Shown here piece by piece: positions 14,355 to 35,046 of a stretch of 64,000 nucleotides of DNA (positions are counted from its first letter, which is position 1; every line of letters begins with the position of its first letter). A program made the position numbers and the translations under genes. Location of the stretch: positions 3,326,160 through 3,390,159 of the forward strand of contig FJOG01000002.1 in the NCBI GenBank assembly GCA_900073065.1, given 5' to 3'. The stretch is from Phialocephala subalpina. Taxonomy: Eukaryota; Ascomycota; Leotiomycetes; Helotiales; Mollisiaceae. A model generated the notes under the pieces. It saw nothing but the letters and a program-made list of their open reading frames with translations, was not told where the DNA came from and made no database searches.

Positions 14355-15197
14355 ATTATCGTCCTTTCGAACTCTACTTTTTCAGCCAAAAGTCATGGTG
14401 TTCATGAAACAACCTTTCTCTTCACTAAGCACTTCCTTGGTTAATAAACTTCAGAAATAGATCCCTGCGCCGGTTTCGATTGACGCCACTATCCGCACTG
14501 TTCTTCTCCCCGGAACAACTCGTTGAGCCTACAGCGATGACCCATGCGGCACGATTGTACAAACGTTTCTTTTTTTTTCATAGCCAAAAATTCCGTGCCC
14601 TGTTACCGACTGCCGGATGACTGTGCAGCAGATTTGACTGTGGAAGTCTCATGACCCGAGTCGGTACTCGATGATGTCCTTTGACGAAAATGAGGGCTGA
14701 AGTCGGCAATTGAAAGTCGGGACCTCATTATCGGCAGGCCGAACCACAGAGGTATATGCCGTGGTTGTAACTGTTTTTGTTGCTGTCACTAGATGTTCCG
14801 AGCAAGGTCTCTTCAACATACTTCTACCGTGTTACCTATGATTTAAACGTTCTTATATCTATCTAGTTGTCACATCAGTTCACGGATAAATGTGTATTTA
14901 TATGTTCAAGACATTGATCATCTCTGTTTTTGCTTCATATCCGTGTACTTCAAGATATAGGTTAGACACTCCCGTCAACCATGAACGGACACCCCATTGC
15001 TTTCCAATACTTTCGACTGCACCATCATAAGCCACCTAAACACTAGAATGCTCTCTTTAGTTCGCTCAATCACAAAGAAACCCTTGGAGTCCAGGACTGG
15101 ATCTTAGGGATCCTGTCCTACACCCAGTTACGTGCTAGAGTAAATCATCAACAATGGAGGTCCATCGTCCCGAAGAAGTCCAGACAATCACCAACTT
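14355..15197. other. Intergenic, nothing supported
   Basis: No open frame with a usable start, and no clear repeat. Confidence 0.4.
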
Positions 15198-15475
15198 TTG
15201 TTGCACATCTCAGTCTTTCAGCAAACCTTTAGCTTGTTGGCAACTCCGATCTGGCTTAGTTTCAGCATTGTAGTGAATCTCGGCTGTGGTTTTATTGATA
15301 GAGGTAATATTCCAGAATTTGAGGGACAATCCTCAAGTTTCGTTGCACATCTCAATCCCCTGATTCTGGCACCAGCTACCCCGTTTTGCTTCTTCTTCGG
15401 GTGAGTGCCTGGACAAGTTTGTACGAGTTTTCTTGGGATAACGATAGGTTTTGTTGCACGTCTGGTCGCAGTTTG
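15198..15475 (+). repeat. Three spaced copies of the GTTGCACATCT repeat
   Basis: Copies start at about 15198 (TTGTTGCACATCTCAGTC), 15341 (CGTTGCACATCTCAATC) and 15451 (TTGTTGCACGTCTGGTCGC). All are on the plus strand and are 143 and 110 bp apart. The same core occurs at 30.7, 30.9, 32.8 and 33.8 kb. The flanks between copies are only loosely alike, so this is either an old tandem array or a conserved short site. Confidence 0.6.
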
Positions 15476-16384
15476 TACCTTCAAGCCTGAGCTGGGGTTT
15501 GATGTCTCACGGGCCTTCCACGACAACTGTAATAATGGCGGTCTTTTGTTCAGGCAAGGGATGCCTTTTGGTGGAGTTTAGATCCTTGACCTTCAAGGCT
15601 TCAAGGCTTAAATGAATGGAATTTTTGAAAGATGGTCGGATCTCGGCCACGGTTGACTTGTGGACGGGTCTTTGAAAAAGTGAGTGAAGGTGGGCAAGTG
15701 GTTCAGTTGACTTAAATTTCGCTGTTATTCTTCGGTAGCACTCACTGCCATTTTTGCGAATATACATTGCGCATCGCCCCCATCCTAGAATCTAGGACTG
15801 TGATGGTCTTCTATGGGAGGCTTGGCGTCGAGATTGTTGTGGCGGGGAGATGGAGGGAAACTTTGCTGGGCTGGAGGATGGGAAACTAGAACACCCTGCT
15901 GGCCTTGTGGTACGGGGTCCGATATTTTGTGAGCTTATTGCGAATACCGTCATTGGCATGGAAGGAGATCTGAGAGAAAGGGTCAGTGATGAATTGGGGT
16001 CTGTTATATATGGTCAATTCTTCAAAGATAGGCGCACATATTTAAAAAGTCATACATAAATATGTAAATAGATTGTAGACAAATAGACAAATGGACAAAT
16101 AAATACTATCTGAGAGACTGTTCAAAGGTCAATCGAAATTGTGAACAAATATACAGGTGACATGTAGTCTCGCGCTGGAAGAGTCCGTCTTGCTGAGAAA
16201 ATTGAGGTGACTGCTTTAAAAGATGATACTTCGTAGTGGCCATCTTGAGTCAAGATACCAGACTTTCGAAGTTCAATCCACCGATCTGCTTTCCAGTGAT
16301 CGGGACTTGAGACTCTTACGTATGAGCAGGCTGCGCAGCCGTGTCGTTCAACCGCAGCCTCGTCTTAATTAACCAAATAATAAA
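15476..16384. other. Intergenic, nothing supported
   Basis: Contains a small A-rich repeat near 16078-16105 (GACAAATAGACAAATGGACAAATAAA, three units read at 8-9 bp spacing). No gene. Confidence 0.4.
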
Positions 16385-16385
16385 G

Positions 16386-16394
16386 TATATAAAA
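16386..16394 (+). promoter_or_regulatory. TATA-like box before the KH-protein gene
   Basis: TATATAAAA is followed by a long C/T-rich leader up to the ATG at 17013. Confidence 0.4.
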
Positions 16395-16837
16395 GAGCTC
16401 TCATACCAAACACCAGACTATCTTTCATTCTACAACCTTTTCCTTCCTCAATCTCTCTCCATTCACAATTTTCCCCATCCCTAGCACGTGTGGTAGTGGA
16501 GTTGATGCCTGAGGCTACAAGACGTCTGCGCGAGGCTCAAAACGGGCTTGACGGCTCCACCAAACTTTTGGTACAAGCTCCTTGACAGATTCCAATTGAA
16601 CTTCACCACCCAATTCACCATCTCTACTCGGAACCGTTCGTCGGCTTCCTACATAATCCCGTTATCTTGCATCTATCCTCAGTCACTCTTTGCACTCTGA
16701 TATTCCTGCCCTTTATGCAACTCTTTAGGGTTTAGGAGCAGTGCTGTTAATATTCGTCTTCGTGTCCTCAAAAACGTCACCTTGCGTCCCGGACTAATTG
16801 GGCTTCGCAATTCGTTCTTCTATTCTCTGCAATCTAG

Positions 16838-16912
16838 GTATGTATTTCCATCATCTTCCTATCTTTCCAAAATTAGTCTGCGAGCCAATTCTAACAGTCC
16901 GATCGCATACAG
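16838..16912 (+). other. Probable 5'-UTR intron of the KH-protein gene
   Basis: GTATGT donor at 16838, TTCTAACAG branch-like sequence at about 16889, and CAG acceptor ending at 16912 (or 16897). This would remove 75 bp from the leader. Splice signals only. Confidence 0.45.
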
Positions 16913-17012
16913 TTGCCATTGATTTTGGGTGCCCTTGCACGCAATCCTCAACTCCTTGCACCCATAATTACACTCTACGAACCAGAGAACCTTCGCACGA
17001 CTCCACAACACC

Positions 17013-20000
17013 ATGGCTTCTGCTACATCTGCGGCGCAAAATGGCGTCAATGGCACAGATTCTGGGGCTGCTCCGGCGCATGCCCCACACAATCCTACTG
17101 TCGAGGAGGTCCCAGACGAGTCCGATTTAAACGGCAAGCCGCACCCTCAAAGCGAGAAGACTATCCTCGAGTCACTGGATGATGCCTCTGCTGCTCCTAC
17201 ATGGGCTGCCACACCATCAGCTAAAGCAGCGGGAAAGCGAAAGGAAGAGCCGTCAGCCAAGGACAAGCGGCCCGTCATTGATACCCAGTCTTCTGACTTA
17301 TTCCCTGGACTGGGAGGACCCAAGCCTGCTGCAGCAACGACCTTCAACACGTCTTGGGGTAAGAAGGTTGCGCCGGTCAATGGAAGATCCAATGGTACAC
17401 CCACCACTGGAGCTTCGACCCCAACATCCGATGGGCCTACACCACCATCGGCCAAAGCTGCACCACATTCACTGGCAAGCCAGATTTCACCACCTTTGCT
17501 CGTCTTGCAGAAGCATGAAGTCCTTCCACGAACCCAGATGAAGAAGCCATTGCCAGACATCATGAAGGACATCAACAAGAAGTTAAGAACAAACTTGACG
17601 ATGACCCAAGGAGCTGGTGGGGTGTTCGAATTTAGAGAAACCAGCAACCAAAAGGAAGCATTGAAGAAGCAGGCCATCCGAGACTTGGGGCAACAAATTG
17701 GAGTCAAGGTTAGATTATCACATTATTCTTTGAAGATTTTGCTAATAATTGTAGACATCAATCAAGGTTGCTATCCCACGCTCTGCTAGAGCTCATGTTA
17801 TTGGAAAGGGCGGGTCGATGATCAAATCGTTACAAGAATCCACCGGAGCACGTATACAAATGCCAAAGATGGACGATTCCGAGCCCACTGACGAAGACGA
17901 CGACATCGATATTGTTATTGAAGGCAATCCCATGGCTGTTCTTTTAGCCAAGAAGGCCGTCGAGAACATTGCCAACGAGCGAACTGCGAATGTCAGCACC
18001 AAGCTACGAACCATACCTGCCGAATTTTACCCCTTCATTGCACAGTCGACAAGCGACTTGGAAGGTTTGCATAATGTTCGAATTGAGATGCCCCCCGACC
18101 ACGCATGGTTACCTCAGACGCCAACGGCGGTTGAAGGTCAAGCTCCTGTTTTTGTACCAGCAGGCGGCGACAACCATATCAGTCTGAGTGGTGACCGTCT
18201 TGCTGTTCAAGCAGCCCGTGCTGAAATCGAACAATTGGCTCAACGACTCCGACAAGAGTTAGCCATGCGCCAGTTCTCTCTCTCTCGCGGTCAGCGTGAC
18301 TTCGTGGTTGGCAGGCACGGCCTGACTCCTCAGGAATTTTTGGCCCAAACCCAATGTGCCCTCATCATCCCTCCTAATGCGACTACAGACGATGTGAGCA
18401 TTATTGGACCAGCTGCTCAACTAGAAGCTGCAATCAATTTTGCCGACGAAAAGGCTGGTGCCGTCAGTAACTCGTCCTTTGGATTCATGTTGCCCTCGAC
18501 CATTGCTTCAAACTTCGCTCAATATCTCAGAGAGCGTCAAGAGATTGAAAGAATGGAGAAACTCTATGGAGCCCATATCGTATCATCGATCGACGAAGAT
18601 GGTCAAATAGAGTATGAAATCTTGTCACAAAATGGCAAGAAGAATAATGATGCCACTCGAGAGATCAAAGCAATCTTCAAGGCGCATCCTCGGGATCGAT
18701 TGGCTCCTCTGGACATCGATCCCTTCTTCCATGCGCACCTTAGACGGACTATCCTCCCCGAGGTCAGACAGCAGCATGGTGTCCACATCGTCATCCCGGA
18801 TGGATCGGCAGCTGGTGCACCTGTCCTACTTGTCTTCGAGGGACCAGAAAGTACTGAGTCTGGCTACAAGGTTCCCCAAGCGGTGCCATCTGCTCGGGAA
18901 AAGGCTGCCTTCAAGCAAGGACTGGAGGATGCCCGTGCTCGCATCTTGGATATCATTAGCAAGCAGGCCGCGATTATTAGTACTACTATTGACGTCCCTA
19001 AGATTCACCACGAAAAGCTAAGGAAATTCATCAAAGATGAGCAGCAAAAGCGTGCCGAGGATGATATCCCCGTCCGAGTCAGTGCTGCTGGTACTTTAGT
19101 CACTCTTCGTGGACCTGCCCCCGCTGTCGAGTCCCTCGCTGCTAAGGTTAATGCCTTCGTGGAGAATGCTATTGCCGACGAGAAGGAACGCGGCTTCGTC
19201 TTGCCTGCCTTTGATTTCCCTCAGAAGCATGCGAACCAACTTATCGGCAAGGGTGGTAGTCACATTCGTGAGCTCCGAGACAAATTTGATGTCGACATCA
19301 ATGTCAAGGACGGTCAGGTCGAACTCAAGGGACCGAAGGCAAAGTGTGAAGCTGCCAAAAGCCATATCTTGTCTCTTGGAAGGCAATGGGCTGATGAAGC
19401 CACTTACACTCTCAAAGTCGAACCCAAGTACCATAGCGAGCTGATCGGCGCCCAAGGTGCTTTGATCAACCGATTACAGACAAAGTATAGAGTCCAGATC
19501 CATTTCCCTAGATCGGCTAAGCCTGTCAGAGACGATCAGTCCAGCGCCGATGCTGCAAGTGTGAAGGGAGGTCGACGCGACCAAGCACCCGATGAGGTCG
19601 TAATCAGAGGACCAAAGAAGGGTGCGGATGAGGCTAGAGAAGAAATTCTCTCTTATCTGCAATACCTCAAGGACAATTCACATGAGGAGAAGATTTCTGT
19701 CCAAGCAAGTCAAATCCCATCTTTGATCGGGCAAGGAGGAAGTGGCATGGATGAAATCCGACAAGTCAGTGGCGCGAGAGTTGATATCCCCAAGGCAGCC
19801 AGAGATCAGGACCCCGCCACTCGTGTCGAGATCTTGATCAAGGGTACCAAGGCCCAGGCTATTCAAGCAAAGAAGATGATCGAGGAGAAGAGAGCCATCT
19901 ACGACTCGACCGTGGTGAAGTCCGTCGAGGTTGACAAGAAGCACCACAGAGCGTTGATCGGTGCAGGAGGTCAGTCACATATCGCTATCATCATTTTTCA

Positions 20001-21043
20001 ATTGCTAATACTTTCTAGGTTCTGCTCTTCGGGACATTGTTGTTAACGCGGGAGGTTCTGATGACAAGCGAGAGCTTGCCAAGACCGTCCAATTCCCCAA
20101 GGCTGATGCTGATGGCAATACCATTAAGGTCACCGGCAAGGAAGATCTCGTTGATAAGATCATTGCATCAATCCAACAGATCGTCATCGACCGTGACAAC
20201 CAAACCACTGAGACCATCGACGTACCCACAGACAAGCACCGTTCGCTGATCGGCCGTGGCGGAGAGACCAAGAAGGAACTTGAGGCCAAATTCAAGGTCT
20301 CAATCGATATTCCCAGACAAGGCAGTGAAGACTCTGCTATTAAGATTACCGGTCTAGCAAAGGACGTGGGGGCAGCCAAGTCACACATCCAAGAGCTCAC
20401 GAAGGAACAAGCTGGAGAGACTATCCAGGTTCCCCGGAAAGTTCATCACTCCGTCTCAGACAACGGTCAATTTTTCAGAAAGCTCCGCAACGATCATCAG
20501 GTCACAGTTGATCACGCCGGATCAAAGCTTCCGCCGAAGCCCTCTGCTTCGGAACCCGCATGGTCCAACGTCACCGACCTACCTTTGATCACCGATGAGG
20601 ACACCTCTGATGCATATGCCTTCAGAACCGCCAGCCTCTCCGGCATCAGCGACGACGGCGAAATCCCATGGGTCCTCAGAGGCTCACCCGAAAGCATCGC
20701 AAAGGCCAAGGCCACCTTAGCCGCAGCCATCGAGCAAGCCCTCAAGAACGACACTCTCGGCCACCTCACTCTTCCCGACCCATCTACATACCGATACGTG
20801 ATCGGCCAAGGAGGAAGCAAGGTGAACAGCATCCGCAAGGCAACCGGCTGCAAGATCACTGTTCCACGAGACCAAGCAGCAGGTCAGCCTATCGAGATTA
20901 TCGGTAGCTATGATGGAGTCGAGAAGGCGAGACAGCTTATTCTTAAGGCTGTCAAGGAAGGCATCGCCAATGGCGGAAACCGTGGCACGAATGGTAGATT
21001 TGGAGGTGCTGCTAATGGAAATGGGAATGGGAACTGGGACTAA
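17013..21043 (+). CDS. SCP160: Multi-KH-domain RNA-binding protein (Scp160/vigilin)
   Basis: Three exons (17013-17708, 17755-19969, 20019-21043) with introns of 46 and 49 bp give 1311 residues. The first about 150 residues are disordered. The rest is a chain of KH modules. Canonical GxxG loops seen in order are VIGKGGSMIKSL, LIGKGGSHIREL, LIGAQGALINRL, LIGQGGSGMDEI, LIGAGGSALRDI (split by intron 2), LIGRGGETKKEL and VIGQGGSKVNSI. Between them lie degenerate modules with broken loops, such as VVGRHG. The tail is Gly/Asn-rich. Length and KH layout match the Scp160/vigilin family, which binds mRNA, associates with ribosomes and the ER, and affects translation and ploidy in yeast. The start is the first ATG in frame after a probable leader intron. 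Confidence 0.93.
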
Positions 21044-22085
21044 TCCCTCTTACCCTTTCTAAGATGCAAAAAGTAGATAGGTACAGTTGAGAGGGGATGT
21101 GGATACAGAAAAGAGATGCGAGATTTCCTTACTATTCTTCATGCGGGTGCAGAGCGTGGTTAAGCTGTGACTTTGTGATTCTTCTTTGGGTTCACAGTTC
21201 ATATGATGCATTTGCGTGGGTTGTATTAAAAGCTTGTGTGCGTGACGATGGGAGAGAGAATAGTGGTGATGTCGCAGTGTCTCTCTCTGTGCATTAAGTT
21301 TCTCTTTTTTGCTTGCTACGAAAATTAGTTGGTAGCTAGATAGCTATCTGACGACCCTCTCCATAGTGCAGAATGAAGATCGTGTTGGGTAGTACGCTTG
21401 TTCGGTTACTCGTCTTCGCTTCGTGAGATGTGTGAGAGTGATGATGTCTACTTCCATGCTCAATGCAATTTCATTAGGGATAATCGAATGCTGATCGGAA
21501 GTGTGCGAGTGACTTGTTTGTTCTGATTGGAGCGTTCTGGAAGGTAGGGCGAATCGAGTCAAGCATCGGTTCAGGGAACGCATGAGACTACAACGTAGGT
21601 TTCAAATGTCCGACATCAGCTGGTTTTCCAAGTTTCCTCCTGTACGGTACACAAAGCCAGAGGGTTTATAGACAACACTGGAAAAAGCAAATGGAAAGTG
21701 CTGGCAGGGATAAAGTTTCATAAGAAATTGGCTTGAATTCGGATGAATCTTGTTGAGTGCAAGGTAACCTCTTGCCCCTGGTCGCTCTTATGATACATTG
21801 CAGCGCATTTGCAACCTCAGCAGGAGAATCCAGATATTAGCCTATCCAGCCACCTTGCCATTCAACGCCGCGAACCAGAACCAAGTCAAGAGCTTACAGA
21901 GGACAGAGGTAGAAATCGAGAATCGAGGAGCGAAAAGGAAGCGTCTGTGTGTATCGCATCTGAATTCAAAAGGCTGGCGAATCGAGAAAGAGGTGGAGTA
22001 CATGCTCCGATTCTTCATTATCAAGCGTGCAACTTGAAGTTGAGTATAATTCTGAATGTGGTGCTTTGCAGTAGAAATTGTTTAA
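21044..22085. other. Convergent spacer between SCP160 and HP1
   Basis: 3' untranslated regions of both genes and spacer. The small open frames here look like chance. Confidence 0.5.
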
Positions 22086-23107
22086 TTATTCCTCCGGGTC
22101 GTTCCTTTTGAAAACCCTGCAATTGGGTTAGTCGTGTCAACGAAGGTCGATAATATTCAAACACTCACAGGTGTTTCTCATAGAACTGCAACATCTTTTG
22201 TGGGCACCGCTTGTAAACCTGGGCGAGGGGGTGCTGCGACTTCTGTCCAGTCTTCCAGGTGATATAAACAATCGGCTTGCCATCAGTTCCTTCGCATGCA
22301 TCGATGCCTTCTACTACTTCCTCCCAATTGCCTGATGGTGGTGTGAAGCCTTTGTCGCTAGCTGGGGGTGTAGTATCAAGTGGATGGCTCTTCGACTTTC
22401 GTCCTTTCTTCGCACCGTTCGTAGGAGTGTCAACGCCGCTACTAGCTCGACCACGCTTCTTGCTTTTCTTGGCTGCTTCCTCGGCCATCTTCTCTTCATG
22501 TTGAGCGAAGATTTGCTCTTTGCCACCGACTGACGCGAGGTATTCGTTTAGGATCTTCGACGCAGTCTCTCTATGTAATTAGTTAGCCAAGTAATACTAG
22601 CCAGAATGGAGGCAGGTACAACAAGTTCTCTTCAGGTTCCCAGGTTCGGTCGGACTTCTTGTCATATCCCTCCCACTTAACCTCGAACTTGAGCTCGCCG
22701 GTCTATAGTCCGTTTAGCACGCGTTTCTCTCCATTATTCGTCAGGTTCGCTCACGGCCTTGTCAACGAGGTGATTGGTGATCTTCTCTACCACGTATCTA
22801 ACCAAGAACTTGTTAGCCAAGCTCCATCTCGGTATCCAAACACGTACTCATCCTCTCCAACTTGATCATCTTCGTCCTCTTCCTCTCCCTTATCAGATTC
22901 GACCATCAGGGACTCCTCCTCTGCTGGCTCGGGTTCCTCAACCTCTGTCTTGGCCTTTCCTTTCTTCTCTGCCTTTACCTTCACCTCTTGCTGCACCTTG
23001 ACTGGTTCGGGGGCAGATTCGACCCCGCTGCCAAAGTCGGAGACTTCTTCGTCGGAGATTTCTGTACGCGATGAGCCAATGCCAAAGAATGAAGCTATGC
23101 CCTCCAT
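22086..23107 (-). CDS. Heterochromatin protein 1 (chromo + chromo-shadow domains)
   Basis: Five exons (23107-22848, 22797-22755, 22702-22620, 22570-22169, 22116-22086) with introns of 49-52 bp give 272 residues. An acidic N-terminal region precedes a chromodomain at about 86-135: EYVVEKITNHLVDKA, then FEVKWEGYDKKSDRTWEPEE, with the aromatic-cage Tyr/Trp residues. A basic hinge (KKSKKRGR) leads to a chromo-shadow domain at about 195-262 (IVYITWKTGQKSQHPLAQVY). A tiny last exon adds VFKRNDPEE, a typical fungal HP1 end. HP1 reads H3K9 methylation and dimerises through the shadow domain to build heterochromatin. An alternative start adds a 10-nt exon at 23187-23178, spliced over 62 bp to 23115 and in frame with ATG 23107. 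The gene is divergent from the F-box gene. Confidence 0.93.
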
Positions 23108-23187
23108 TATCTCGGCTGCAGAGCTTCAGCGACGTAGAGCCCTGGAAACACAAGGAATGCGCGATGTTGCAACTTACGAGGAGGCAT

Positions 23188-23597
23188 CTTAGGTTTGAAG
23201 TAGAGTGTACTTAAGGTGGCTGGTATGGAAGCAAGAAGTGCGCCAACGGTAATTGAGAGAGGTAAACGGTCCTTCGCAGGTACCAAAATTGCAATTGTGA
23301 GATCGCAAGATCGATATGCACGAATGAACACGTCTATTTGTGTTGATTAGAAGTGGGAGACGGGATGGGAAGTGGTGGAGGTATTTGTAAAAGACCGCGC
23401 GACTGTTGATGATGGCGCTGCCTCGCTGGGCAACACGGTTTGCTTATGTAAGTTGGAGCTAGCCAGGCACACGTGATACATTCCTCTCAACTTCATCCTT
23501 CAGGCGGCAGCTTGTCTTTGTCTCTGCGTATTATCTTTCCTCGTCATAAGCTCTATCTACACGTTTCTTAAGCTTCAATTTGATATTTTCACCAGAA
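23188..23597. promoter_or_regulatory. Shared divergent promoter region (HP1 / F-box gene)
   Basis: About 400-490 bp between two divergent starts, with C/T-rich leaders on both sides. No specific site is claimed. Confidence 0.4.
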
Positions 23598-25357
23598 ATG
23601 GCTTCAGCTAGCGCTCATGCAGCAGAGTGTGTGCCTCTTTCGAAACTCTCCATGGACGTCTTTGCAATCATTGCAGGATTCCTCGAGACATCAGACATTC
23701 AGTCTGCAAGGCTAGCTGGAAGAGACCTGCATATGTTCTTAAGTCCATATCTCTTTCGCGCTATCACTTTCGCTCCCCATCTGGAAACCCTCGACCGTCT
23801 CGACAAGATCTCCCAACACTCTGTCCTCTCGTTCAATACTAGGATACTACGATTTGATACTTCGATTTCCAGATTGCCAAACTTGAAGCATGACCTTGAC
23901 GAATTGGAGTGAGTTGATTTTAATTGCTCTGCCACTCCATTGATGTCAATCTTCTTTGCAATGCTTGTTTCCAGAGCCCGAACAATTGCTACCAAAAGAC
24001 ATGTATTCCTACATCAACAGCAAGTTGACTGGAGACTGGGTCTTGCTTACCACACCTTCATGTCCGACATGGGCACAGAATTTCCTGCAGTACAAATAGG
24101 GCATTCCACTGGATCTTTGTTAAATTTCTTTCTAGATTTCGACGGCACTACGCCTGGCACACTCGGACATTGACAATGCCAAATGTTCGTCTTCGACCCT
24201 GCTTTTCGTTGGACTGTGTTGAAACCCTGGAAGAATATGCTTCGTATGTTCTCGACCAAGATACCATTCTAAAGCAGCTAGAGCACCATCTCAGCCAAGT
24301 CATTGCAGCTTTCCCCAAATTATCTACGATTATCATCTGCAACACCCATATGCATAGTTCTGAGAGGTTCATGTCGGTGCTACAAAGGAATTCTATCTCG
24401 CGGAAATGGGTTCGCAAAAACCAGTTCATGGCCTTACTTCGAGCCATAGCGGACACGCCGAGCTGCAATATAACCAGGATCACCGTTGAGGGGCATTGGA
24501 TTGAGAAAGCATTCAGATTTTTGAATAATGGTAATTTCGGAGACGATCACGAGACCCTAGGTTCGATCCAGTACTGTCTCGGTCCTGCTTTCATGACTGC
24601 CTCGTACCCGAAGGAGAAGATACCCTTCATGCATGGCTCTTCATTCAGTTTGAATGCACAAGAGCTTTTAACAGCCAAGTCCATATTCAGCAACCTCACT
24701 CAGCTCAAACTTGGCATTTTCACTGCTGTCCCACTTGAGGAATTCTACATGGATCCGGCAGATGTCGCCAAAACATACTGGGCTGAATTTCCCAAAGTGT
24801 TGCAATCTCTCACCAAAGTCGTTGATCTTTCCCTCGATATGAAAATTCACAGAGCGGTAGACCAACAGCACAGTTGTGACTACTACCACGACGATATAGC
24901 TGAACTCTTTGAGAACCGATCCATCACATTTCCATATCTCAAGCGGCTCAAACTATCTCAATTTCGGAGTCGTGGCTCAAGTGTCAACGCTTTTCTTGAG
25001 AGACACCCAAACATCGTAGACCTCACTCTGAACTTTATCATCCAGATCAAGACTGAGTACAATCCTTGGGACGACAGATGGGCCGTGTGGACCCCTGACC
25101 CGCAATGGATCCAGTGTGTTGAAACTATGAATGCACTTAAGCTACACCGACTTGATCTCCGCGGCATCGAAGGTTTTGGGTGTGATTATTCTCGGTATGG
25201 GAGTGAGAATGAGAACTTGACGTTAGCAAGAATTCATGATTATGTTCTCCATGGCTATGGAGACAACCCTTTACCAACGCGCTTACCCCTCAAGGAGAAC
25301 GGATTGAGTTGGGATCGCGAATTTTGGTACACTGACGATGAGTGCATGAGCTCATAG
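23598..25357 (+). CDS. F-box protein with a probable one-base frame break
   Basis: Exon 1 is 23598-23908, exon 2 is 23975-24089, exon 3 is 24136-25357; introns are 66 and 46 bp. An F-box lies near residues 13-55 (VPLSKLSMDVFAIIAGFLET, then ARLAGRDLHMFLSPYLFRAI). The C-terminal part is leucine-rich-like, with DLSLDMKI and LKRLKLSQFRS segments. F-box proteins recruit substrates to SCF ubiquitin ligases. Exons 1 and 2 are in frame and exon 3 starts in frame (ISTALRLAHSD), but the long downstream frame (TMPNVRLRPCFSL) is one base off, and exon 3 is 3n+1 long. Either one base is extra near 24150-24172, by mutation or assembly error, or a weak GTCCGA donor at about 24062 is used, which would keep the frame. 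The first ATG is at 23598; the frame opens slightly earlier without one. Confidence 0.7.
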
Positions 25358-25389
25358 ATTGATGCGTCTAGGAGAGATAGACTTCTAGA

Positions 25390-25773
25390 ATGGGACGACG
25401 TATGAACTTACCACATTTGAGTAGTCAGTTGGTTAAGATATATATTTTAAAATCATCACGATCTCAGAACTTCTTAGATCCCAAGACATTCTTCGCCTGG
25501 ACAGATTGTTTGGCCAAGACGCCGTCGCCCAATTCGCTTCTTTTAAAAGAGCTCTCTAGAACACTGAATTATGGTGCAGCATCTATGAAAATGGGCTTGG
25601 AGAAGATGGAGAAGCAGGAACAAAGACGAGGGATAAGTAAAGAGGAGAGTGAGAATCGTACTAGATGGGCGTTTACTACTGGGACTCTGATTTTCTTCTC
25701 GCTCCAGGGGATGGCATTGTATGGGTTGACGAGATTGTTTGGGGGGAAGAAGGATGAGAGCGGGAAGTTGTAG
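25390..25773 (+). CDS. Small membrane protein, paralogue of the next gene
   Basis: 127 residues, intronless, starting only 32 bp after the F-box stop. A charged amphipathic stretch (MEKQEQRRGISKEESENR) is followed by one hydrophobic segment (TGTLIFFSLQGMALYGLTRL) and a short Lys/Gly-rich tail. It aligns along most of its length with the protein at 26407: DPK/DPR, KEL../IKV.., EQ..GMSEEES/GISKEES, LFGG/LWGG. Unlike that protein it lacks a clear targeting peptide, so its N-terminus may have been lost or rebuilt. Family unknown. Confidence 0.65.
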   Translation: MGRRMNLPHLSSQLVKIYILKSSRSQNFLDPKTFFAWTDCLAKTPSPNSLLLKELSRTLNYGAASMKMGLEKMEKQEQRRGISKEESENRTRWAFTTGTLIFFSLQGMALYGLTRLFGGKKDESGKL

Positions 25774-26406
25774 CATAGAGTGCTTGCCTTTTTGAGCATG
25801 ACAAGATTGGATGAAGCCTACGAGTCAAGAGTCGAAGTTTTGAAAACTTTCAAGCATTGGGCTGAGACCTTTTGCAGTTCTGGCCCAGGGGTGGACGGAC
25901 ATCGAATGGGATTGGACAGGACAGAGGTCTTACATGTGCTTGGTGACTCGCAACTTAATGACTTAGGGTGGAATGAAAACATTACTTATAGGAGTAGAGT
26001 TTGTGTGATCTAGCCAGCATGCTGCTTCTCCTCTCTATTCTAGCTGAAAAAGATGGCATTCTAGGACTTGGCCATAGATTGCCATCTTCCAAACATTAGT
26101 TCCAAAATAACTACGAGACATGATTCTAAAACTTGCAAGAAGTGACATACTTAGCTACCGTTTATAGAGCAGATGGAAGTTCTGTAAAAAGTTGTTCTCA
26201 TTAAGTTGTCAGTTCACCCCTGCATTCTCCGGCGGTATGATTGGTCGAGCAGTCGTAGCGAAAACGGTCACCAACATCTCGTCTCGAGTATCTTAAACCT
26301 CTCTTCTCTTGTGCCTACTCAAACTTCACAACTTCGATTCGAAAGGATGTGAGATCATTCCCTTCAGAACTTCTGAAAATATACATCGAACGCATATCAA
26401 TTCACG
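25774..26406. other. Spacer between the paralogues
   Basis: 3' region of the first copy and promoter/leader of the second. No other gene supported. Confidence 0.4.
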
Positions 26407-26970
26407 ATGTGGTCATCAATGGCACGCCTCACTCTCGCCCGGCGAGCTGTCCTGCCTCGTCACGCGACACGATCAATATCACGACCCCTCACGCTCACGC
26501 AATGCCACTACTACAGAGTCCAACAGACAAGGGCATTTTCCCAAACACCAAAGCCCCAATGGTTCATAGATCCCAGGAAGATCATCAGCTTCGGCGAGCG
26601 CCTAGGTGAACAGCCAATGACTCAATACTCACCTCCCGTGAGGCACCTTCTCATCAAAGTTATCGAGGGTACGCAGAGAATGAAGAAAGTGGTCGAGGAT
26701 GTGGAGCGGGATGAGCAGGAAAATGGGATGTCGGAAGAGGAAAGTGCAGAGAGCACTGCGAATGCCTTCACTCTTCTTGTTATGATTATTATCCTAGGGA
26801 ACATCACATTCATCCAGGGGCTGAGACGGTGGTTGTGGGGAGGGGAGAGTGAGAGTGAGGGATTGGATGGGAGTCTGACAAGTCCGAAATCCGATCAGGA
26901 TGGAATAGAATCTGATATACAAGGCGGTTGGGATAGAGTTAGGGCCTTTAGTAGTGGGGCGGTGGAGTGA
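26407..26970 (+). CDS. Small single-pass membrane protein, probably mitochondrial
   Basis: 187 residues, intronless. The first about 45 residues are rich in Arg, Ser, Thr and Leu without acidic residues, and RAFSQTPKP follows; this looks like a mitochondrial targeting and cleavage region. Residues about 75-115 form a charged helix with VVEDVERDEQENGMSEEESA. A hydrophobic segment follows at about 120-138 (AFTLLVMIIILGNITFIQGL), then an acidic Ser-rich tail. Function unknown. It is the better-preserved member of the tandem pair. Confidence 0.75.
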   Translation: MWSSMARLTLARRAVLPRHATRSISRPLTLTQCHYYRVQQTRAFSQTPKPQWFIDPRKIISFGERLGEQPMTQYSPPVRHLLIKVIEGTQRMKKVVEDVERDEQENGMSEEESAESTANAFTLLVMIIILGNITFIQGLRRWLWGGESESEGLDGSLTSPKSDQDGIESDIQGGWDRVRAFSSGAVE

Positions 26971-27930
26971 GAATTCGCGGCGACGATGGACATTGAGCGC
27001 AGATCAGATGGTATGACTTCGTACCAGATGCTGGCTTGGGTACGGAAACTGTTTGGAGCATTGTTTTGGCTGATCGATGCCTTGGCTTGAAGCACGAAAC
27101 TCGCAGGATTATCAGGAGTGAGGACGACAATCGAGTACACACCTTAAACGAAAAGTTACCTCTTGAACTACCATGCTTCTGTCATATCTCTCACACTTCG
27201 ACCAGTTCTCTTTCAATCTCGACCGTGTCAGTTTCCAAGACCGAGAGGCATTCATACCCTTCTTTCTCGACGGTCGTCCTAGATTTGAATATGGCCGTGG
27301 TATCAAGAAAGCCTTCAGGACTCGGGACAGGCGATTCGAGACGGTGAAAGCAACGGGAGTTCGAAAGGAAATTGTGGTTCTTTTGGAAGCTTTTTATTGC
27401 GTTATCGGGCCACAAATCAACAATGTTCAAACCCTGATCGCATCTTAGCCTCAAGACACCCTTCCAGAAACTTCATGTGTTTGCCTCTCTTGATATAACG
27501 CAGCTTCCCTTTCTAGTCATTGAACAATGTCTTCAGATCATAGCTCTACATTCAGCACCTCGCATGGGAATGAAACACAACCAATCAATGGCCATCATTA
27601 CCCCTGAATATTCACTGGGAATGACTTGACGGATATTTATCCGAAAGCACGGCGCAATATATTGCCCGAAGAGTACGTACGGCTCCAGAACCGGGATCAG
27701 ATCTGGCCTTTAAAACCGAGCTTTACGAAGGATAGCACACATTAACATCAATTTTTGCTTTCCATTGCTGTCTAGTAAGATTTTAGTGCCCCTGTCATCT
27801 TTGCTGACATCTTGGCGTTGAGGGAACTCAAATCTACATATAAAATTCACCTTGTCTTATCTCTCTCGTTCTCATCATAATTCTCTTTACCCCTTCGGTC
27901 TTGGATTTTTCTCGTTTGAATCTGCACGAT
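26971..27930. other. Spacer upstream of the FAD monooxygenase
   Basis: No supported gene. The last about 200 bp before 27931 contain a C/T-rich leader. Confidence 0.4.
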
Positions 27931-29448
27931 ATGGCGCGCAACTTCAGAGCCATAATCGTTGGTGGCTCCGTAGCAGGACTGACATTGGCCCACATGTTCG
28001 AGCAAGCGAACATCGATTATGTACTCCTCGAAGCACGCGATATCATCTCTCCTCAACTTGGGGCATCGATTGTAATCATGCCAAATGGTGCAAGGATATT
28101 AGATCAGATGGGATTGTATGAGGAATTAAAGAATACAATCATGACACCGATGGCCAAATCTTTTATCCGGAGGTCAGACGGGAGGTTGGTCACGAGCAAT
28201 GAGTGGCCAAAGCTTGTTGAGGACAGGTGAGCCTTTCGAGATCCTATCTGAGAATAGATGTTGACAAGAGGACAGGTTGGGATATATCTGTGGTATTTGC
28301 GAACGAATGCAATTTCTGAGGTCGATGTACGGCCAGCTAAAGGACAAGTCGAAGGTCCGGTTGAGCAAGAAAGTTAGCTCTATCCAGCATAACGAGGATT
28401 CCGTCACTGTCAAATGCCAGGATGGGACTGAGTTCACAGGTGATATTGTGATTGGAGCAGATGGTATTCATAGTCGGACCAGAAAAGAGATGCAACGATA
28501 TGCGAAGGAGACGGGTCCTCCAGGTCTCATGGATGAGGACGAATCACGTAGATTCAGGCTCTCTTATCACTTGAACTTCAAACTAACCATTTCCCAGGCA
28601 TAACAGCAGAATACAATTGCTTCTTCGGTATTGCCCAAAACATGCCCTCTCTCGTTCCCGGCGACGGCCACACCTCAACGGACGTCGACCACTCCAGTCT
28701 CCTCTTCGTCGGCCATCACGGCCTCCCCCAGTTCTTCTTCTTCTCCAAAATGCCACAAAAATACATCGGCGCCTCCAACATACCTCGCTTCACCAAATCC
28801 CAGTTGCAAGACCAAATCGAAGAGTTCAAAGATTTTAAAGTCACCGAAGAAGTGACGCTTGGAGATCTGATGCAGAATACGAAAAGTTTGAGTTATTTTG
28901 CGTTGGAGGAGGCGAATCATGAGCATTGGAATTTTGGGAGGGTGGTTTGTTTGGGGGATGCGATTCATAAGATGACGCCGAATTTGGGGCAGGGTGGGAA
29001 TCAGGCGATTGAGAGTGCGGCGGTGTTGACGAATGTTTTGCTTGATTTGCTTAAATCGAAGGATGGGAGTGAGAAAGTGCCGATTCCGGAGCTACAAGCA
29101 ACGTTGCTCCAGTACCAAAATATTCGACAAAAGCGTGCAAAGAAATTTGTAGACTTGTCGGGAATGTTAACGAGGACTGATGCGCTGGCTACCCTGAGAC
29201 ATGTGTTGAGATTCTTGTATTCAGAACCATTGAGTGGAGAAATTTTGGCAGGTGAGTTGGCAGGCGGTGAAGTAAATGCAGTATAGACTAATGAGAAAAC
29301 AGATATTCAGACTGAAATGTACCATACAGCGCCATCTCTCAATTTCCTGCCTTTGCCAGATAGGACCAAAGACAATCAGCTGTGGATCGAAGGGACGAAG
29401 AGAGCGAAAGCCAGAAAGGATGTCCCCTTCCCGCGGTCGAGATTGTAG
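27931..29448 (+). CDS. FAD-dependent monooxygenase, PaxM/salicylate-hydroxylase-like
   Basis: Four exons (27931-28226, 28276-28547, 28598-29251, 29303-29448) with introns of 49-51 bp give 455 residues. The FAD-binding start is IIVGGSVAGLTLAHMFEQA, then LLEAR and ASIVIMPNGARILDQMGLY. The middle motif VIGADGIHSRTR and the C-terminal CLGDAIHKMTPNLGQGGNQA complete the flavoprotein hydroxylase fingerprint. The pattern is close to fungal meroterpenoid/indole-diterpene oxidases of the PaxM type, which epoxidise or hydroxylate a lipophilic substrate with NAD(P)H. No prenyltransferase, terpene cyclase or synthase lies in the window, so the pathway is unknown. Exon 4 is added over a GTGAGT/ACAG intron; without it the frame would stop at 29286. 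It converges on the rhamnogalacturonase gene, with 239 bp between stops. Confidence 0.9.
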
Positions 29449-29687
29449 GTTAGTCTCCGAGGACTCCCATCTCAGAACATAGGGGAAACCCAAGATGTCC
29501 CTGCCAAGATAATATGTAAATATACTAGACATGCATAGTGCAACATCATCAAAGACACTAGATATATACAGCTCATACAAATCCATACTTACAGAAGAAG
29601 ATATATGCTCCACTTGCTGCTTCTCAAGTCCCCTTCCTCCTTATATCCAGAAATGGTTCCACAAATTTGTCAGCCGATCCTTTCATC

Positions 29688-31864
29688 TTAACCACCAAGC
29701 AACTTGCTCGCGGGTGTAGCACCAGGAAAAAAAGTCGTTGGAATGGGTGGGATCGGGATGCTTGACGTCAAAGCAAACCCGGCTGTGAGATCATTCGGCA
29801 TCTTGGGATCGGATGCATACCCGGATCTGTTTTCATCAATATTGAGCACCAGTCGCCACTAACTCAAGGCAATCTGGAGAGTTAGGAGAACCCACGGCGC
29901 AGTATTAATCGTGGACGTGACGACCGCATACCCCGAACCACTTCCAGCTTTCAAACACGCACCGCTTCCATACGCATTCTGACCTACTCACTCATCAGCA
30001 CTTTCACTCCCTCATTATCCTCACCCTTTCCAACCAGAACACTCACATTTCCAAACAACACTACTCCCACTCTCAGTCCAAACACTAAACCCCTCAACCA
30101 CAATCCCCGTACACGGAACTTTATCCGGACACAACACCTGCACCGGGCCCCTCTGCACCCCATTCGAGCAAGTCCCCCTCCAATCCCTGAACGTGATATC
30201 CTGGTACAGGACCCCATATCCAGTAGCTACTTTCTGACTAGACCAATCGGCGTTTAGGTCGAGGGTGTAGGCGTTTGAATGACCGAGGAAGGATTCGAAG
30301 GTGCAGTTTTTGACGGATCCGGAACCGCCGCGGGATTTGAGCATGTACATTTGGTTGGAGTTCTGGGTATAGATGTTGCGGTAGTGGATGTTGGATATCG
30401 CTCGGAATTTGTTAGTATGTTGAAAAGTGAGAAAGAAGATCTGGATATACCAGTATCTGAGCCTAAGCTGCCCATTGCGCAGCCTCCAGACCAGTTGCAG
30501 TAGATGTTCTCGATGAGCATGTTACTCGCTGGACTCTGTTTGCTCTGTTAGCGTTGTGTCCTTCTCTCTACTCCTTTCTATGAACTTCTTTGTTTCTTCG
30601 AAAATTGTGCAGCAAAAGTCCTTTTCGTCCCAATGTCAAGACATTCACTTGCTGCATAACAAAGACCTGAGCCAATACGAAGCCAGAGCGGATCACTAAA
30701 ATGTCCGCAGACGCTCCGCTCCGACCGAGATGTGCAACGAAACTCAATCGATGTCCCAGTTGCAGGGAGGACTTTCAAGCCATTACACTTGTGTATCCAC
30801 TGAGGAGCTAGGCAAGAATGAGAAAGGCTTACGGCCCTGGAGTGCCCGCAGATCGTCCGCTCCAACTGAGATGTGCAACGAAACTCGTCAATGCCCTACT
30901 CTGTGGCAGGACTTCGAGCTCCCTCCACGTAATACAATACTTCAACCGCTAAGTCTTCACTCTTTACCCTTCTTCTCGCAAAGCAAAAAGAGAAAGAAAA
31001 GATCACGTACCTTAACAGTAACACACTCATCCCTATTCGTAACCTCCACATCATGGACATGAATGTTACTCCCCCAAATATCAATCCCATCCAATCCACC
31101 TTCATTTCCACCTCTAATAATCATATTATACACCTCTCCGTCCGAACAAGTATCCATAATGAGATGGAACGCTCCGGCATCGACGAGAGCTAAATCGTGG
31201 ATGGAGAAATCGGTGACTTTGGTTAGGCGGATGAGGCGGGGGCCGTAGTTGCCAGCTGGTTGAAAGTTAGATTTGGGGAAGGGAAGGGAAGAGGAAGGAG
31301 GGGAAGAGGAAGGAGGGAGAGTACCGGCGTGAAATGTGTATCCGTATCCCTGCATGGCGCCTTTGGAGGTGCTGCTGTAGAATTCGAAATCACTCGTGCT
31401 TGAAACGGAAATCATGTGTCCTCCTCCTGTTCTGAGCCACAAAATTTCATCAGCTATTCCTCTCCATCTCAGTCAACAGCGAGGGGAGAATGAACTCACC
31501 CCACCCGATAGATGATCCCATCAAGCTGCAAAGCCCAGCTCTTACCTCCACTCAAAGCAGCCCAAGTACTCATTCCATAATCTCCGGGTGGGATATATAC
31601 TATTCTCATCAGCACTTTGTCTTGAATGCCTCATGCTAGGAGCTCACCTGTTCCTCCGTTCTTGCAAGCAGCAAAGGCAGAAGCGATCGGTGGTCCGATA
31701 TCAGACGTCTTACTCGCCACGCCACCATAGTCGAGCACATTGCAAACTTTTGATCTCTTCGAGGTCCTGCTTGTTGTTGGACCGACTGAGCCTGAGAGCT
31801 GTGCTGAGATGGGAGGAAGGAGTGTGAAGACAGCGGTGGCGAGTGAGTGGATGAGTATCTTCAT
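29688..31864 (-). CDS. Secreted rhamnogalacturonase (GH28)
   Basis: Eight exons (31864-31648, 31599-31500, 31431-31325, 31255-31011, 30535-30451, 30400-30047, 29983-29896, 29826-29688) give 444 residues. A signal peptide ([21 protein letters not shown]) precedes [15 protein letters not shown], a start typical of fungal rhamnogalacturonases. The right-handed beta-helix core has [20 protein letters not shown], the NRDECVTVK catalytic region, and [19 protein letters not shown]. The protein ends in a Pro-rich [17 protein letters not shown]28 rhamnogalacturonases cut the alternating GalA-Rha backbone of pectin outside the cell. Six introns are 48-69 bp, but the one at 30536-31010 is 475 bp and carries repeat sequence (listed separately). 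The intron at 31256-31324 is an almost pure pyrimidine tract on the coding strand. Confidence 0.93.
30536..31010 (-). repeat. 475-bp intron of the rhamnogalacturonase with a duplicated repeat
   Basis: Donor GTACGT ends exon 4 and the acceptor AAACAG opens exon 5, placed by restoring the family sequence TVK-SPASNM. Inside lie two copies of a block of about 60-70 bp (about 30705-30770 and 30845-30912). They share GCAGA..GTCCGCTCC, GAGATGTGCAACGAAACTC and GGCAGGACTT-like ends. The reverse complement holds the GTTGCACATCTC core also found at 15.2, 32.8 and 33.8 kb. The other introns of this gene are 48-69 bp. Confidence 0.75.
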
Positions 31865-32439
31865 ATCAAACACAAGAATAAACTGCTGGTCAAGAGTAGG
31901 CGAAGAGTAATGCAGAAGGGAAGGTAGGCTTGACAATCGAAGTCGGGTCGAGACTTATCTTCTAACTCAAGTGAAAAGTTAACACAGGCTGGACTGAAGT
32001 CGTGACTCTCGGAAGAGATGTCGTGGAGATGCAAGCATGTTTCGTCGGCGCCAATATCAGATCCGGTTCCTTTAACCATATTAGCTGACGATATGATTCT
32101 TCCCCCATCAATACAATATGGACGACGAATCGGTACATATCCTTTTATTAAGCTGCCATTTCCTGTTGCGGCATTGGAGCTGTAGACCCGATACCGAGCA
32201 ACACCCCGCATTTCCCCAGAGGGACCTTCGGGACGGGCTTGATGATATGAGCTTAATTGCACGTCGTCTCATGTAGAGTCACATCATATGCATCTCTCTC
32301 TCTCTTCGGGTAGCGACTCCTGCATTCCACGTAGACGGCAGAGCAGATTGGACACTTGTCCCGCCGGCTCTTGACCACAATATATTACCCTGCCTCATCC
32401 GGATCATTACCCCAGATTCTGTGCTAGATTCGGTAAGTC
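31865..32439. other. Promoter side of the rhamnogalacturonase gene
   Basis: Upstream region; no supported gene. Specific sites not claimed. Confidence 0.4.
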
Positions 32440-32462
32440 ACCGCCCGAAACAAACATTAAGG

Positions 32463-32651
32463 TCAAAAGATATTTGAATTGGCCAATCGTACTTGGTCCA
32501 GCCTCCCCGACTTCCCCACATTGTAGGAATGGGCCAGGGAGAGTTGGCTGTGAATGCGCGAGACCACAACATCCAAGGTAACATATGAGACAGCCAGAGA
32601 CAGAAGAGCAACAATAGTGATTCCAATCAGAAACAGCACCGCAGGAGGCAT
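32463..32651 (-). CDS. Possible small signal-anchor protein
   Basis: 62 codons from an ATG near 32651. One strong hydrophobic segment directly after the start (MPPAVLFLIGITIVALLSLA) is followed by a soluble tail. It could be a small secreted or membrane protein, or a chance frame. No family recognised and no introns needed. Confidence 0.25.
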   Translation of the reverse strand: MPPAVLFLIGITIVALLSLAVSYVTLDVVVSRIHSQLSLAHSYNVGKSGRLDQVRLANSNIF

Positions 32652-32756
32652 AGGCAGTCGTAGTTTATATAAGCAAAACAAGCATCGAAAGAAGGAAGTC
32701 AGATTCGAATGCCTCCTCGATCGGCGTGTCCTCAGGTGCTATTGCACGTGCCTCAA

Positions 32757-32778
32757 AGCTTTTGTTGCACATCGCAGA
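32757..32778 (+). repeat. GTTGCACATC repeat copy
   Basis: TTTTGTTGCACATCGCAGAA matches the dispersed core, with TCTC changed to TCGC. Confidence 0.5.
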
Positions 32779-34212
32779 ATCTGCATTTTGGACGGGGGTT
32801 GAGCTTCAGACGGTCTTTGTCATGGGACAGTTTTCGGTTTTGGATGGTGTTGGATGATCGCAAATTTTGGACGGTTCCTTGCTCTGATTTGGTCTCGAAG
32901 CGAGTTTTGCTGCTTCCACGCCCCTTCGATTCTGATCAGCCACCTCATGCCTTGACAAAAGGATGGGATTCAGAACGTGGAGAAATCTATAAAAAGGAAG
33001 GCTTTTAATGTTCTGTATCTGGAGATAATGGGCCATTAGGTGAAAAAGAGGGTTGAGGTTGTAGTGATGAGAAGCACACAACATAAAATTGTAGTCATAC
33101 ACCTACTGACTCGTCTGTGGAAAGATACAATCACACACCCCCTGACGCCGTTCCTCCTCTGTGACGAAGAACTTTCCGCCACAACCCACTCTTTCCTTTC
33201 CCAAATAGACTCATCCTCATTTAACCTTCCATCTCATAATAAAGTGTACTAGAACTCATCTCTTCGTTGTCTTACTAACTTCCAAAATCACAGAAATAAG
33301 CTCAAAGTACCTTCCATTATAAAATAAAATAAAAACACTCCCCAGACATCAATCTATCACTTCAAACATTTAACATCACTCTTTCCCTACACTACCCTCA
33401 CAATGGACTCGAACAAACCATCTTCACACCTCGTCCCAATAGCTTGAAGTCCCATCCCCAAATCACTCCTCCACCCACAAATCCATCCGACGACCCTATG
33501 AGGACGACGACGATATGTAATATTCGCCATCCAGGAACAAGAATAACAAGAACATCCGGAGGATACTACCATTAAAAGAAGAAGTGCTTTGAAACACCCA
33601 TATGCCCTCTCCAAGACTGAGTCCAAATACACAAAAAAATATATATATTATGCAAATCTAGAAAATTCATCTGCTGTACATCGCAGGGAAGGGAGCCCTT
33701 ATATATGAATCCCTCTCTGAAAGGGATTCTGATGAATGAGTCACATAAGAAGGTTTTCGCTCGGTCCCAGATTTTCTCTGCGGCCACCATCCCAGAACAA
33801 GTGTAGAGATGGAACGATAAGAATTGTTGCACATCGCGAAACGATTTTCCGAGACTCGGTTCGATTTGATACGTTGCGGTTTTCTCTTGCTCCTTGCGCC
33901 TTGCGCCTTGCGAGCACAAAATCGAAAGGCAGGGATGAAGAAAGAGAAAGGAGGGGGAGGGGGGGGAGATAGACTTGCATCATCTTTTGACAGCCGTGGC
34001 TAAAATCTCACTTCTTCGTACTTCGTTATGATCTGTTCAAAATCAGCGTTCGTCTACAGCGTCTTTGTAGCCGATCGAAATCTAGAAGCATCTCTAAGTC
34101 TACTCTAATTCTAATTCTACTTCTACCTTCTCTTTATATCTATGACTGGGTACTCTACTCCATCCTATGCTTTCTCCTCTATCTATATCTTCATTTCTAT
34201 TTCTATACGCAT
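32779..34212. other. Intergenic stretch
   Basis: No supported gene apart from the repeat copy at 33823. It contains a short GCGCCTTGCGCCTTGCG repeat near 33896 and an A-rich tract near 33635. The 3' region of the histidine-phosphatase gene lies just below 34213. Confidence 0.4.
33823..33842 (+). repeat. GTTGCACATC repeat copy
   Basis: ATTGTTGCACATCGCGAAAC matches the dispersed core and shares the TCGC variant with the copy at 32757. Confidence 0.5.
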
Positions 34213-35046
34213 CTATAGCTTCGCACTCTCCTCCCCCACACTCCCATGCCCCTGACTCTGATACCCCGCCTCCCCCCACTCCCTCTCAGCACTATCCCTC
34301 AACCTTCTCTGCTCATCTTCTGACAGCGGCTTTTCGGTTCCCAGTCGTCTTATTCTCGAGTCGGTGGTTTCTTTCAAGCTGGCTCGCTCGTCCGCCAGAG
34401 TAGAATCGATGTATTCGTACGATCGGAATTCCGTGTTGGCCCATCCAGTACCCGTGAATTTGTCGTTGCCCTCCCAATCTTCCGTGAAGTAGTGTAAAAA
34501 TCCGCCATGTGTTGTAACTACGATATGGGCTTCTCCTTCTCCTGGATTGTTGTTTATCCACTCTTGTCCTAATTCACGGAGGATTTTCCGAGCTTCAAGA
34601 GCCCGTGCCTCAATCGCAGAAGAAGCCGGACTCCATTTCCCCCTCTTGCTGTTCCACCCGTCTTCTACTCGATGTAGATCCACTGTTCCTCTGTATTTCC
34701 CCTCCCCAAACTCTTCTGCAAGTTTTGAAGGATCGGAGCCTGTGTCGCAGGGTAAATCACTCGTCTCCTGTAATTCCGGCAAAGCGAGGATTTTGAATTG
34801 TTCGTATTCATCACTCGGAGGATGGATCAGGGTTGGGAATGAGAGGAGGGTTGTGTAGATTGTTCTCCGCAGAGGAGAAGCGACGAGATGGGTGATGACT
34901 GGTGTATGTGGGAAGTCGACTGCTAGATGGCGGCATTGTCCTTCGCCTAAAGGTGTCAAGGAAGGATCGGGGAGTTTGTGATTCTCGAGGTTGAGGTTGT
35001 GGAAGCCTTGGGCGTGGCGGATGCAGTGGATTGTTATTTTGGCCAT
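34213..35046 (-). CDS. Histidine phosphatase (phosphoglycerate-mutase-like)
   Basis: 277 residues, intronless, starting at an ATG with no better alternative. The RHG-type start is IRHAQGFHN, with Arg10 and the phospho-accepting His11. The second Arg pair is in ASPLRRT (60-61). Glu in LPELQE (about 91-94) is the likely acid, and the second catalytic His180 is in VVTTHGGFLHYF. All core residues of the branch-2-like histidine phosphatase superfamily are present. Fungal relatives are small cytosolic phosphatases of unclear substrate. The last 60 residues are charged, with Gly/Ser at the end, and are not part of the fold. Confidence 0.9.
   Translation of the reverse strand: MAKITIHCIRHAQGFHNLNLENHKLPDPSLTPLGEGQCRHLAVDFPHTPVITHLVASPLRRTIYTTLLSFPTLIHPPSDEYEQFKILALPELQETSDLPCDTGSDPSKLAEEFGEGKYRGTVDLHRVEDGWNSKRGKWSPASSAIEARALEARKILRELGQEWINNNPGEGEAHIVVTTHGGFLHYFTEDWEGNDKFTGTGWANTEFRSYEYIDSTLADERASLKETTDSRIRRLGTEKPLSEDEQRRLRDSAEREWGEAGYQSQGHGSVGEESAKL

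Follow-up and report, generated by a model that had tools for sequence, protein, structure and literature searches.

A short repeat family of Phialocephala subalpina with a 17-base core and a fixed-gap palindrome as putative protein-recognition sites

The described systems that come closest to the repeat family considered here are the fungal miniature inverted-repeat transposable elements (MITEs) or fold-back elements, the dispersed minisatellites, the 17-bp CENP-B box, which sits in mammalian satellite monomers, and the sites of fungal transcription-factor homodimers, where inverted half-sites stand at a fixed gap, as in the CGG-N11-CCG of the Zn2Cys6 proteins. A minisatellite family is also known in Phialocephala, with no confirmation among the literature matches listed, and no title among the matches listed from the open-access PMC literature describes the present family. 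The family was met as the word GTTGCACRTCK in a stretch of 64,000 nucleotides of the Phialocephala subalpina genome (assembly GCA_900073065.1, contig FJOG01000002.1, positions 3,326,160 to 3,390,159 of the forward strand), which as a whole is called the window below. We propose, giving the proposal about an even chance of being right, that this is an old short repeat family in which a 17-base core and a dimer-type palindrome beside one type of the core, the T-type, are putative protein-recognition sites, with the clusters of copies arising via tandem duplication.

Like the fungal MITEs, the family is short, non-coding and dispersed, and a subset of its copies is an imperfect palindrome of ~105 bp with diverged homologues. 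Unlike them, the copies of the other core type, the G-type, share only ~20 bases, head-to-tail clusters prevail among the places listed, and no parent transposon was found in DDE_1, the one family searched. With the dispersed minisatellites the family shares tandem units that hold one conserved core and a locus-specific rest, and tandem copies are indeed present; the differences are that the units here are ~60-190 bp long, that 10 of 17 adjacent pairs are too diverged for flank similarity and that the T-type carries a palindrome in fixed phase. The CENP-B box is likewise a 17-bp site with a comparable unit length and is the same at 11 of 17 positions, whereas its CGGG part is not matched and the copies here are dispersed. 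As in the fungal homodimer sites, the palindrome has inverted half-sites with a fixed 11-base gap, the letters of which are nearly free; its half-site, CAATGTCC, is however longer and of another sequence, and the palindrome is known here from sequence alone.

The core in the window and in the genome

An exact string count gives seven copies of GTTGCACRTCK in the window, all where a sequence-only reading had noted them, with starts at 15200, 15342, 15453, 32764 and 33826 on the plus strand and at 30728 and 30869 on the minus strand. That reading had also held that the word should be nearly absent by chance, which agrees with a mean of 0.11 and a maximum of 1 in 100 dinucleotide-preserving shuffles of the window. 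With one mismatch permitted there are 13 copies, compared with 3.8 expected, and thus the signal in the window lies mostly in the exact copies. The spacings inside the sub-groups, previously put at about 110-145 bp, are 142, 111 and 141 bp, and the match does extend into the flanks of some copies, over 33 nt at 85% in the pair at 15.2/15.3 kb and over 44 nt at 86% in the pair at 30.7/30.9 kb.

It is noted that the description of the repeat as seven copies in 19 kb is right for the window and understates its extent, since the family is genome-wide. In the searched genome (68.1 Mb, 119 contigs) the word occurs 658 times, 323 and 335 times on the two strands, compared with 81 times for the word read backwards, so that the genome-wide count, named beforehand as the point at which the repeat could fail, exceeds the chance level. 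One of the proteins encoded in this genome has its closest named relative in Mollisia scopiformis, at 87% identity, and the fungus is taken as a helotialean of that group. The surroundings were examined at 100 places among the 658 matches (contigs C3-C34), which make up 69 loci (L009-L077), and at the window copies; beside these core-found loci, further ones were chosen for a palindrome or a composite. In the 107 copies (the 100 listed places and the window) conservation reaches beyond the 11-mer, from -4 to +12, and fades after, so that the core has 17 bases and reads TTTYGTTGCACRTCKCA. One version of the core, TTTTGTTGCACATCGCA, is found at 488 places within two mismatches, compared with 3 in the backward control, and an arbitrary 17-mer is found at 18 places genome-wide with the same setting. 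Among 125 copies in the fetched loci (two mismatches, degenerate positions free), position 15 is G in 76, T in 47 and another base in 2; with G at this position (G-type) position 4 is T in 70 of the 76, and with T (T-type) it is C in 28 of the 47. A viral collection gave an uncontrolled count of 4 exact 17-mer matches.

With the controls so far under the counts, an origin of the whole family by chance or as an artefact of composition is refuted, and we leave it next to no probability. A background share nevertheless exists, as is seen from the 81 backward matches beside the 658 and from the 15 of 107 copies in which the flank agrees at two or fewer of 6 positions, and single weak copies may be chance ones, such as that at 33826, the most doubtful window copy of all seven, whose flank is weak, with AATT ahead of it and CG behind. 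Repeat-induced point mutation and AT-rich islands were considered and rejected, as the 69 core loci hardly differ in composition and dinucleotide ratios from 118 control stretches. Of 66 cores, not one falls within a predicted coding region; this negative is weak, since the window itself had served to train the predictor, which marks as little as 13% of the control loci as coding (4% of the core loci).

The likeness to the CENP-B box would suggest a pogo-type CENP-B-related protein as the binder of the core, an interpretation that we regard as very improbable. Among 5000 shuffled cores, only 21 for the T-type and 13 for the G-type reach an agreement at 11 of 17 positions, the units here are up to ~190 bp long, and the genome contains 63 DDE_1 matches. 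The 17-base box used in this comparison agrees with the CTTCGTTGGAAACGGGA given in PMC7644632. By contrast, with the pattern TTCGNNNNANNCGGG from the same source (PMC7644632), a hand count finds five of the nine defining bases in either core type, and of the CGGG no base is present in the T-type and one in the G-type. Moreover, the comparison was picked after the motif had been seen, and the copies at the 100 listed places are dispersed, with no single centromere-like block. The X-box of RFX was rejected as a counterpart, since shuffled cores do as well (2774 and 1019 of 5000 reach it).

Two smaller observations concern the make-up of the family. In three copies (L029, L030 and L050) AAAAAGGGC follows directly after the core at a fixed place, which suggests that they form a further subfamily. 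Two loci, L062 and L069, have closely similar flanks around an untypical GTTGCACATCT, and they are probably a separate repeat that includes the word by chance.

The palindrome beside the T-type cores

Near the strong cores two words are enriched at fixed places, AATGTCC at ~-36 and GGACATT at ~-18 from GTTGCAC, and together they make the palindrome CAATGTCC-N11-GGACATTG. Searched by itself, AATGTCC-N8..13-GGACATTG has 113 matches genome-wide and 0 in the control; with 8-13 permitted, the spacer is exactly 11 in 81 of 100 rows among the matches listed, or in 73 of 90 without mirror duplicates. Within one mismatch CAATGTCC-N11-GGACATTG has 188 sites, with 0 in the control, and makes up a repeat family by itself, seen for example in L093-L112, L115 and L119. 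Inverted half-sites, constant spacing and a nearly free gap are the features of a dimer site. In 72 distinct sequences the gap letters show mild mirror-image preferences and the five inner gap pairs show no compensatory changes, and such a gap without covariation favours protein half-sites over an RNA stem.

This bears on the idea that the family acts at the RNA level, with a palindrome hairpin in transcripts and a core that is recognised in its RNA form within untranslated regions or introns. Complementarity of the outer half-sites, and the two window copies found on the sense strand of an intron, would be expected from such an element, whereas the inner pairs change without compensation, the remaining window copies lie in intergenic spacers and Rfam gave 0 matches in 12 loci (17842 bases; the window itself not scanned). 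We thus consider an RNA-level element to be highly unlikely, and of the three readings offered at first, a remnant of a non-autonomous element, a binding site and a small-RNA locus, it is the last, taken as a structured RNA, for which these results give no support.

The link between the two sites depends on the type of the core. Of 80 strong cores, 11 have GGACA precisely at -18. In the core-selected loci, 15 of 31 copies of the T-type have the right half at its fixed place, with control offsets giving a mean of 1.7 and a maximum of 4, while for the G-type and other cores it is so in 5 of 70 copies, with control offsets giving a mean of 3.0 and a maximum of 7; the link of core and palindrome is thus a property of the T-type. 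Note that these counts replace those including the composite-chosen loci (25/47 and 10/77), which were inflated. Two loci are of interest for the palindrome itself: L119 has four palindromes, one of them a variant, in a space of 610 bp, and at L106:979-1085 two copies 81 bp apart read as part of an acidic protein.

Clusters, decayed flanks and what may keep the core

The copies occur in clusters. The 100 listed places give 85 pairs of neighbours on the same contig, 27 of which are no more than 500 bp apart, compared with 0.41 expected; 24 of the 27 are on one strand and 22 are spaced 58-192 bp, while pairs spaced 0.5-10 kb show a small excess (11 compared with 7.4). Flank likeness is above that of 99% of random pairs in 7 of 17 adjacent copy pairs, with the clearest tandem pairs in L072 (170 bp) and L068 (187 bp). 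An ungapped comparison of array flanks, in which 1 pair passed, was set aside, since its null gave far too many matches, the probable source being long runs of N in one control locus.

Between different loci, by contrast, the flanks are like random DNA. The flank score is 34.2, compared with 34.0 for random DNA, and in 55 G-type copies the majority frequency is 0.331 in the flanks, 0.322 in random rows and 0.928 in the core. If the 488 places were what is left after uniform decay from one single ancestor, at least 8.5 million ancestral copies would be required at a retention of 0.4 or less and 0.4 million at 0.5; at retentions of 0.3-0.4 the numbers go from millions to hundreds of millions. 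The calculation takes the single ancestor and the uniform decay as premises and uses a sample drawn by the core. The random-like flanks and the large ancestral copy number are the main argument for constraint on the core.

Based on our proposal, the several hundred copies of TTTYGTTGCACRTCKCA, mostly outside predicted coding sequence, would most likely be bound by a sequence-specific nuclear protein. The palindrome, with its mirror-image half-sites and fixed gap, would be a homodimer-type site, and its one fixed distance from about half of the T-type cores would place two proteins, or two domains of one protein, side by side. Units of ~60-190 bp duplicated in tandem would account, at least partly, for the clusters; part of the T-type copies would have spread as a ~105 bp palindromic MITE-like element, and elsewhere the core would be kept by selection while the remainder of the unit decayed. 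The bound site may serve in transcription, in chromatin organisation or as a transposase's own site.

The palindromic copies are those that may have been mobile. In some T-type copies the core stands on either side of the palindrome, both cores pointing outward. A core on each side of the central palindrome is found in six loci (L038, L117, L126, L128, L129 and L130), and many other copies are single-armed. For L126, five other places are 74-81% identical over ~90-120 bp of the palindromic part and two further places match its left tandem part, and the palindromic subset of ~105 bp is homologous across several loci, with even decay. The ungapped symmetric match between the arms is 19-21 of 45 in L126, L038, L128 and L130 and 9 and 8 in L117 and L129, and in the arms the shared sequence runs on for tens of bases. 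DNA folding of three palindromic copies gave long hairpins in two (z -5.5 and -2.7) and in the third a value like that of shuffles (z 0.8).

Several observations weigh against our proposal. The loci were selected via the core, so that part of its conservation is built into the sample. In six arms of palindromic copies the retention is 0.90 in the core and 0.94 just outside, as under neutral decay, a comparison that used the better-matching arm per element and is biased towards the outer segment. The palindromic subset calls for no more than a short element that was copied and then decayed evenly, which counters a strong claim of selection on the whole family. Significant flank similarity is absent in 10 of the 17 adjacent pairs, and the G-type and other cores are unlinked to the palindrome. 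Conversely, of 20 loci retrieved chiefly because of their palindromes, 2 have a core beside an exact palindrome (L101 and L109, the latter also selected for a composite; in L112 a core stands beside a one-mismatch palindrome), and hence the palindrome is often alone. In addition, the two palindromes of L106 are inside one 399-codon open frame, and 8 of 43 TTTY cores are within stop-free frames of more than 150 codons, compared with 35% of random positions in other loci.

These points bring in the reading in which the repeat is selfish and functionless, an old MITE-like palindrome with its tandem derivatives, several subfamilies of which would share the core for the needs of the transposition machinery. 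The homologues of L126, the like decay of core and outer arm, the two hairpins and the ordinary base composition of the core loci are all what it would lead one to expect. It does not account for the G-type copies, which share nothing detectable outside ~20 bases, nor for the random-like flanks of different loci, and in the third palindromic copy the folding is on a par with that of shuffles. Moreover, a comparison by eye shows no match to DDE_1, the one transposase family searched, less than 5 kb from any of the 100 listed cores, the nearest being 6.9 kb away. We consider the selfish repeat a serious candidate and still a rather unlikely one. It is noted that an element remnant and a binding site are compatible. 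Both have support, the former from the ~105 bp palindromic version with its diverged homologues at five other places and the latter from the 17-base core among random-like flanks and from the fixed-gap dimer form of the palindrome, and with this the initial interpretation is partly supported.

Going beyond our proposal, one can think of a two-part DNA address in Mollisia-like fungi, of a kind not described before, in which ~500 core sites and ~190 dimer sites, in fixed phase in the T-type and kept by selection while the DNA around them drifts, would be read by a putative factor that acts on chromatin or expression genome-wide. This factor may be a transposase since domesticated, and the palindromic copies would then be relics of its ancestral element; all this is speculative and we hold it to be doubtful. 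Recognition sites that outlast their drifted surroundings usually come from binding experiments, while here two candidates come from sequence only, in a non-model fungus, and the fixed spacing between them in one type was read in the same way. If it is a host protein that binds the sites, a general DNA-binding factor new to science would be indicated; should the binder be a transposase, they would be an example of short elements seeding regulatory sites and enlarging introns.

The window copies and the rhamnogalacturonase intron

The window copies were also scored with a position-weight scan, from the training of which the window rows were excluded and for which the null was 40 Markov-resampled windows with a maximum of 13.2. 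Three composite units are above all 40 resampled windows. Two are T-type units on the plus strand, in which a palindrome-like part is followed by the core, at 15164..15214 with the core TTTTGTTGCACATCTCA at 15196-15212 (score 35.9) and at 15306..15356 with the core TTTCGTTGCACATCTCA at 15338-15354 (score 47.4). The third, on the minus strand at 30724..30774 (score 48.2), is a T-type unit in an intron, reading AAGTCC...GGGACATCG and then the core TTTCGTTGCACATCTCG at 30726-30742. A further T-type minus-strand unit lies 141 bp away in the same intron, at 30865..30915 with its core at 30867-30883; its score of 8.0 is under the resampled maximum, and visual inspection shows its upstream part shifted against the model. 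The third core of the 15.2-15.5 kb cluster, TTTTGTTGCACGTCTGG at 15449..15465 on the plus strand, is a word match on which the scan is silent. The two remaining copies, both on the plus strand, are of the G-type: TTTTGTTGCACATCGCA at 32760..32776, an exact match (C47:3358919-3358935) that lies upstream of the rhamnogalacturonase gene, in the spacer before its start codon at 31864, and the weak core AATTGTTGCACATCGCG at 33822..33838, a word match in the spacer before the minus-strand open frame 34213-35262.

The placing of one pair of copies in an intron, which had been noted from the start, is confirmed. The pair at 30.7/30.9 kb lies within an intron of a rhamnogalacturonase A (1rmg)-like gene, on the sense strand of the intron, which extends over 30536..31010 on the minus strand and was read by its donor and acceptor as 475 nt long, or as 466 nt with the acceptor at 30545. 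The joined exons match rhamnogalacturonase A (1rmg_A) over 201 residues, gap-free across the junction, with E 2.3e-92. For scale, the mean intron of Phialocephala subalpina is given as 80.2 nt in PMC5148876. Finally, we note that the same intron has a possible third decayed unit, which the position-weight scan did not report and which by eye reads AATGTCTTGACATTGGGAC...CTTTTGCTGCACA at 30604-30651 on the minus strand.

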